A DNA stretch of 64,000 bases. Source: Gallibacterium genomosp. 1. GTDB taxonomy: Bacteria > Pseudomonadota > Gammaproteobacteria > Enterobacterales > Pasteurellaceae. The notes under the pieces were generated by a model. It was given only the letters and a program-made list of their open reading frames with translations, had not been told where the DNA came from and ran no database searches. The position numbers were made by a program, and so were the translations under genes. Location of the stretch: positions 1 to 64,000 of the forward strand of contig NZ_JPXX01000007.1 in the NCBI RefSeq assembly GCF_000771875.1, in the 5' to 3' direction. Below, in pieces: positions 6,716 through 9,814 of the stretch. Within the stretch, counting starts at the first letter, position 1. Each line of letters begins with the position of its first letter.

Positions 6716-8065
<1,350 letters not shown>

Positions 8066-8093
8066 CCCTTTTCCACAATTCCTTTTATCTCTT

Positions 8094-8123
8094 GAAGATG
8101 GGTATTTCCCATCTTCTTTTTTT
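8094..8123 (+). terminator. Rho-independent terminator of gdhA
   Basis: GAAGATGGG and CCCATCTTC form a 9-base-pair stem with a short loop, followed by seven T residues. Confidence 0.92.
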
Positions 8124-8260
8124 ATCATTCTAATTATTCCTTCTTCAAAAAAGATCAACATTATTCAATATTATTTTAAATGCAGATTTCTTATAACATT
8201 TCCAATTACCATCATATTTTTATCCCTTTTAGTTATAAAAAATAATAAAAAGTGCTAAAT

Positions 8261-8276
8261 AGCCATCTAGCCGTAT
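8261..8276. promoter_or_regulatory. Possible MetJ operator (two tandem Met boxes)
   Basis: AGCCATCT and AGCCGTAT stand head to tail; each matches the 8-base Met box AGACGTCT at six positions. MetJ binds two or more adjacent boxes, so the tandem arrangement matters more than each match. A TATAAT hexamer at 8290-8295 places the boxes over the expected -35 region, as for a repressor site. Downstream is a decayed amino-acid transporter, so the ancestral operon may have carried methionine or cystine. Found by eye, with no score. Confidence 0.5.
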
Positions 8277-8328
8277 AGAAATAAATTTATATAATGCCTT
8301 TATGTTTTAGTTTAAATGGACTCTGAAA

Positions 8329-8631
8329 ATGGATTGGCAATACGTTGTTAATGCAATTCCAAAATTTATTGATGCAACCTTACTCACGCTTTATTTAGCG
8401 GGAGCCGGTATCCTTTTCTCGCTCATCATCGGCATTATCTGTGCAGTACTGCTGGTGTATCCGATACGAGTTTTATCTCGCATCACTAAAGCTTATATTG
8501 AAATCTCTTGCAAGATTGTTTACCACGAAATGACTTTCACTCGTCAAGTTTCAGACCACATTATTTTTATGGATCAAAGCAATATTATTGAATAGAACAC
8601 TCCAGAACAATTTTTAAGAAGTCGGTAAAAT
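8329..8631 (+). pseudogene. Collapsed amino-acid ABC transporter: permease N-terminus joined to ATPase C-terminus
   Basis: The first 62 or so codons encode the start of a polar amino-acid ABC permease (MDWQYVVNAIPKFIDATLLTLY, with one membrane helix, ending at AYIEIS). The reading then jumps in frame to the end of the partner ATPase: a form of the H-loop (IVYHEMTFTRQVSD) and the IIFMDQ strand. A stop codon at 8593-8595 interrupts this, and the ATPase-like frame continues as NTPEQFL. About two thirds of the permease and most of the ATPase, including both Walker motifs, are missing. It cannot make a working transporter. An 88-residue product is possible but probably meaningless. Confidence 0.8.
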
Positions 8632-8633
8632 AG

Positions 8634-9055
8634 ATTCCGTCATCACAGATATTCAGCAATTAACTGATAAAACATTATTAGTTAATAAGGGCACTACCGC
8701 CGATGCCTTCTTCACAAAAAATTATCCTAATATCAAATTATTGAAATTTGAACAAAATACAGAAACCTTTGATGCCTTAAAAGATGGGCGTGGCGACGCA
8801 TTAGCACACGACAACACACTATTATTCGCGTGGACAAAAAATAATCCAGGCTATACCGTTGGTGTGCGTAGCTTGGGCGAACAAGAGTTCATCGCTCCGG
8901 CAGTACAAAAAAATCAACCTGAATTATTAAAATGGTTAAATGATGAAATCGTAAAACTAACTAAAGAGGGTAAAATTAAAGCCGCTTACGAAAAAACACT
9001 ACATCCAGTTTACGGCGATACCATCAGCGAATCTGATATTTTGGTGGATTATTAG
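8634..9055 (+). pseudogene. Amino-acid ABC transporter substrate-binding protein, C-terminal remnant
   Basis: This frame holds the second half of a periplasmic polar amino-acid binding protein. It starts around VITDIQQL, has the conserved TLLVNKGTTADAFF strand and the RGDALAHDNTLLFAW segment that closes the ligand site, and ends with a normal C-terminus. The signal peptide and first lobe are gone and there is no good start codon; the first internal ATG, at 8741, would give 104 residues. A stop lies just before the fragment in this frame. It follows the permease/ATPase remnant directly, so a second deletion removed the ATPase end and the binding-protein start. Confidence 0.82.
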
Positions 9056-9106: not shown

Positions 9107-9505
9107 CTACCAGCGATACCAATATCTGTGAGGCCAACGTGGGCCTAAATCGTATGGAGGAAAATCATCATAATAAAATTGCCGCTCAATCTCCATCTGT
9201 CGGATTTGTTGCTGAGCCATATAATTTTGTAATGCCAATTTATAACAAGATTGGAACATTGGATCATTCACCCGCTTAGTATATTCCGCTTTGAATGCTT
9301 TCTGCTCTTTTTCTGTTAAGCCAATATCCTGATCAAACTGACGCTTCATTAAATATGCCGTTTCTTCATCACACTGTTTTGCCAAAGCAACCTGTAGCGC
9401 CTGCTGCTGCCGAATTTGAGCCTCCTCTCTAGCTCGCTGTTGCTCCGGTGTCAAAGCACAAGCGGTTAGGAGGACAACAAGACCCATAATTAATATTCGT
9501 TTCAT
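9107..9505 (-). CDS. Small predicted lipoprotein of unknown function
   Basis: The 132-residue product starts with a short signal peptide and a lipobox (LTAC, cysteine at 16), so it is probably a lipid-anchored envelope protein. The middle (residues 20-60) is rich in Q, E, A and R and probably helical, with conserved-looking cysteines at about 45 and 86. The tail is rich in aromatic residues and proline (ending WPHRYWYRW). I do not recognise the family. The codons of the lipobox contain ACCGCTTGT, the complement of one Pasteurellaceae DNA-uptake core. It sits in the decayed region but is itself intact. Confidence 0.72.
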   Translation of the reverse strand: MKRILIMGLVVLLTACALTPEQQRAREEAQIRQQQALQVALAKQCDEETAYLMKRQFDQDIGLTEKEQKAFKAEYTKRVNDPMFQSCYKLALQNYMAQQQIRQMEIERQFYYDDFPPYDLGPRWPHRYWYRW

Positions 9506-9514
9506 AATCTCACC

Positions 9515-9814
9515 TTATATCTTCACAAGATTCTGTAAGATTAGAATACTACCAATAACGATTAAAAAACAGTAAATGATTTTATGATAATTAATATTAT
9601 ATTTATGCATCAATTGGTATCCGAATAATCCAAGTAGTAATCCTATAATAAATGCAGGAAACATACTTACTATGTGAGAAAAGACCTCTCCTGTTAGCAA
9701 ATCTTTATTCCAAAATCCTATAATTGCACCTATCATTTGCAGCATAAACAATGGCTCACTATTTTTGAAAAACAAGTCAAAGCGTGTGAAGCAAAAATTC
9801 AAGAAGAGGATCAA
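9515..9814 (-). pseudogene. Possible TauE/SafE-type permease, C-terminal fragment
   Basis: The frame encodes 99 residues with two or three hydrophobic stretches. The part from MLQMIGAIIGFW onward, ending with FPAFIIGLLLGLFGYQ and a last helix (IIYCFLIVIGSILILQNL), resembles the last third of TauE/SafE anion permeases, including the P-x(4)-GLLLG pattern. The first 23 residues do not look like the family and overlap an opposite-strand coding tail, so the junction is probably near 9745. It lacks the first half and any obvious promoter. It could instead be a small independent membrane protein. Confidence 0.5.

Follow-up and report, generated by a model that had tools for sequence, protein, structure and literature searches.

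The MetJ operators of Pasteurellaceae (at metN, metF, metX, and metE) share with the site analyzed here two adjacent 8-bp boxes of the AGMCRTCT type at the promoter. Closest to it are the metN operators of relatives (AGCCATATAGCCGTCT), which are nearly identical, and boxes of the AGCC type are also used by relatives in front of metF (AGCCATCTAAACGGCT). The MetJ regulon published for 20 Pasteurellales includes no cysteine importer (PMC3228920), and our literature search returned no report of MetJ controlling a cysteine transporter. MetJ is known to have taxon-specific targets, metX among them (PMC4239095), so that a lineage-specific target at an importer is conceivable.

We analyzed one stretch of 64,000 nucleotides from Gallibacterium genomosp. 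1, hereafter the window, in which such a pair of boxes (8261–8276) stands in the surviving promoter of an ABC importer operon of four genes (permease, permease, ATPase, and binding protein) that was destroyed recently and most likely served L-cysteine. Our preferred interpretation, to which we give very nearly an even chance, is that this promoter combined CysB-type control with an extra MetJ operator. If this is true, MetJ would act on a cysteine importer, a target absent from the published regulon table (PMC3228920), and cysteine uptake would join the MetJ regulon of one lineage.

The lost importer and its substrate

An intact counterpart is found in a genome of the same genus (G001, locus L007), where the complete four-gene operon lies between the same neighbors on both sides as in the window. 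Over nearly the full length, its binding protein matches 2YJP (E 1e-108) and 1XT8 (E 1e-96), which are its best matches and which we take to be the cysteine receptors of Neisseria and Campylobacter, respectively. Compared to the L-cysteine importers of these two organisms, the window keeps only permease and ATPase scraps and, of the binding protein, its C-terminal half. In PMC6299482, a passage citing Muller 2005 describes the Campylobacter protein as a cysteine receptor. Since the operon has the make-up of an ABC importer and the nearest matches of its binding protein are L-cysteine receptors, the lost importer was most probably one for L-cysteine. None of the equivalog NCBIfam models reaches its cut-off against the importer, and we therefore infer the substrate from receptor homology. 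In plasmid records, only distant matches to the binding protein occur.

The sequence-only reading had proposed a methionine- or sulfur-amino-acid-specific transporter. The homology to cysteine receptors agrees with a sulfur amino acid, while methionine specificity was rejected because the binding protein falls in SBP_bac_3, with cysteine receptors as its closest matches; metN, found with its own operator elsewhere in the genome, also speaks against methionine.

Tandem MetJ-like boxes in the importer promoter

Box 1 (AGCCATCT, 8261–8268) and box 2 (AGCCGTAT, 8269–8276), read directly on the forward strand of the window, adjoin each other between the gdhA terminator and the first-permease stub. 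Each box agrees with the consensus at six of eight positions, as the two boxes do with each other, so that the tandem Met-box pattern described in the sequence-only reading is indeed present. The claimed overlap with the −35 region of a TATAAT promoter holds as well: with a spacer of 17–18 bp from the predicted −10 element of the importer promoter (TATAAT, 8290–8295, forward strand), the −35 falls at 8266–8272 within the boxes, though no recognizable −35 hexamer is found there. A promoter lacking a good −35 hexamer would be expected if transcription depended on an activator.

Against the doubled consensus AGACGTCT, 8261–8276 matches at 12 of 16 positions. For matches of this quality, a first-order Markov model of the window gives an expectation of 1.03 per 64 kb, and the window contains one; thus, the count lies at chance level and is by itself no evidence for a MetJ site. 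Counting alone would have discarded the site, and it gave way to a matrix built from 42 distinct Pasteurellaceae operators, including metF, metX, and metN operators from relatives. This matrix gives the site 15.3 bits, while the second-best site in the window reaches 8.0. When each of the 42 true operators was left out in turn, five scored below the candidate. The Markov model expects 0.125 sites with at least 15.3 bits per 64 kb, and the sole site at this level in ~446 kb of non-met Pasteurellaceae loci is the G001 copy of the importer promoter. Within 369 kb of the own genome, the top non-met site has 13.7 bits. A genome-wide search used a degenerate pattern, and its ranking, which is incomplete, covers those of the listed matches that were scored; among these, one other non-met site scores higher (17.0 bits), within a 589-aa ORF. 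Because the matrix scores each position independently, it would under-weight a diverged 8-bp tandem duplication. In sum of these scores, the candidate site is above background and at the lower edge of the true-operator range, which is how the Pasteurellaceae matrix called for in the sequence-only reading turned out. The site had been singled out by a reader who could have matched any regulator at any place, and this counts against the MetJ reading.

The genome also encodes MetJ (G000:C3:35369–35659, E 2.4e-52), on whose presence the earlier proposal depended. All seven box pairs with at most three mismatches in this genome sit at methionine genes, forming seven clear operators at six met loci (metE, a second metE-like gene, metX with two, metF, the metJ/metL interval, and metN), and the regulon thus looks to be a working one. 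Each of these operators likewise has only two boxes; they score 16.5–25.1 bits, and the candidate lies below every one of them.

Conservation was assessed within and beyond the genus. Window and G001 do not differ anywhere between 8225 and 8411, a stretch that includes the start codon; within the intergenic region, the proximal 99 bp are unchanged, while the distal part (8066–8229) differs at 10 of 164 positions. Because the entire proximal block is the same, identity to G001 does not test the boxes, and we set it aside as proof of them; the contrast with the distal part points to the whole promoter having been constrained before the loss, with nothing that singles out the boxes. The orthologous permease occurs in 79 of 140 family genomes, and 80 upstream loci were scanned, namely the G001 copy (L008) and 79 others, many of which are near-duplicates owing to the inclusion of duplicate copies of the same genomes. 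None of these 79 loci carries a MetJ-like site (best score 9.0 bits), so that the boxes find no counterpart before intact orthologues outside the genus, an outcome that the sequence-only reading had named as speaking against it. Since sites can be lineage-specific, this lack of conservation lowers the probability of a MetJ operator rather than excluding it. Overall, real MetJ binding at the candidate operator stands at about even odds.

A CysB-type box and the weighing of alternatives

The best-supported control element of the promoter is a putative CysB activator site, TTTAGTTATAAAAAATAATAAAAA, at 8228–8251 on the forward strand, which is absent from the earlier note. For scoring, we used a matrix 24 bp wide whose training set consisted of 30 Pasteurellaceae cysK promoters alone (L282–L311). 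By this measure the box reaches 22.0 bits and the runner-up in the window 11.5; scanning both strands of 369 kb of the own genome, we found no locus above 16 bits other than cysK. The box is shared with cysK, and cysB is present in the genome (G000:C5:89076–90035, 61% identical to E. coli CysB), which together lead us to infer CysB binding at 8228–8251. In detail, the cysK element TTTGGTTATAAAATATAGC is matched by TTTAGTTATAAAAAATA in the window, while, in contrast to the cysK-type box, the window site has no recognizable downstream half. A literature search yielded no usable CysB motif for Pasteurellaceae; the cysK promoters themselves carry a well-conserved TTTGGTTATAAAATATAGC.AATA ~90–110 bp before the start codon, which makes a usable CysB-type motif for the family.

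A GTTATAA.A.ATAG element is common to many importer promoters, and a clear box is missing in some relatives. With the cysK matrix, importer promoters score far above met promoters (Mann–Whitney p = 2e-14, kinship uncorrected). Measured from the first base of the CysB-type box, TATAAT lies 62 bp away in the window, compared to mostly 51–55 bp in those relatives whose importer promoters combine a clear box with an exact TATAAT, and the extra ~10 bp fall where the Met boxes are.

On the preferred interpretation, CysB would activate the operon from 8228–8251 when cysteine is short, which would be the main control and one shared by many relatives; the Met-box pair present in this lineage lies between this site and the −10 element. 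MetJ together with S-adenosylmethionine would occlude the −35 region at 8261–8276 and block RNA polymerase, so that plentiful methionine would reduce the uptake of cysteine, the sulfur donor for methionine. That MetJ in this way captured a CysB-controlled L-cysteine importer in one Pasteurellaceae lineage, so that uptake would answer to cysteine and methionine status alike, is a tentative proposal that we hold at slightly less than an even chance. In that case, a repressor site would have arisen within the spacer of a promoter that depends on an activator, beside the activator box.

Alternatively, the boxes may resemble a MetJ operator by chance, possibly because 8 bp of the spacer were duplicated in tandem and then diverged, and the CysB-type site would be the sole control. 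We regard this as a serious contender, although its probability falls noticeably short of one half. The longer spacer and the agreement of the two boxes at six of eight positions fit a duplication, the consensus match is at chance level, the Markov expectation amounts to a few sites of this score per genome, the other, higher-scoring non-met site sits inside a coding gene, and the 79 other loci lack the site. On the other hand, the 369 kb of own genome contain no equally good non-met site, and a MetJ operator would be expected just where the boxes are, in the core promoter of a sulfur-amino-acid importer. Should the resemblance prove fortuitous, even a good matrix score would be seen to need phylogenetic support.

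The boxes could also form the downstream part of an extended footprint of CysB, a LysR-type regulator, their Met-box look being incidental. Regulators of this type bind long regions (PMC5002191), and a ATTCTTTC-type stretch recurs in this part of the promoter in many relatives. However, AGCCATCTAGCCGTAT is unlike that stretch, and the cysK-type matrix picks up the upstream box only, which leaves this explanation improbable.

Remnants of the operon and its neighbors

Upstream of the promoter, gdhA (glutamate dehydrogenase, 6728–8065, forward strand) is intact, with a 445-aa ORF matching Pfam PF00208 and PF02812. The forward strand then holds a stub of the first permease gene (8329–8508; ~60 of 219 codons), which differs from the intact L007 copy at 8 positions in 180 bp, followed by an ATPase-gene scrap interrupted by an in-frame stop (8514–8618) and the binding-protein gene reduced to its C-terminal half (8635–9055), whose SBP_bac_3 match is below the cut-off. 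The second permease gene is gone from the window, as is the N-terminal half of the binding protein. Compared to L007, the binding-protein scrap differs at 30 of 417 positions; third codon positions account for 29 of these differences, and only one of 138 residues is changed, indicating that the gene was under selection until very recently. Consequently, the importer operon appears to be a recent loss, and its promoter had no time to decay. The sequence-only reading had suggested a control site that outlived its genes; with so recent a loss, an untouched promoter is expected, and the site has hardly outlived them.

The ATPase scrap departs from this picture, being only 79% identical to the L007 gene (22 of 105 bp differ, at all codon positions), while the flanking pieces are 93–96% identical with almost only silent changes. 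Since this scrap looks long decayed and its flanks recent, the locus may be a recombination mosaic of old and recent loss.

Downstream, an intact small lipoprotein-like gene (9107–9505, reverse strand; 132-aa ORF) is the same neighbor as in L007. In a third member of the genus (G003, L337), gdhA directly adjoins this gene with no importer trace between them. The gene following the lipoprotein gene encodes a 248-aa putative membrane protein in L007 (5620–6366), of which the window retains a 99-aa C-terminal remnant (9515–9814, reverse strand), a second decayed gene beside the dead importer.
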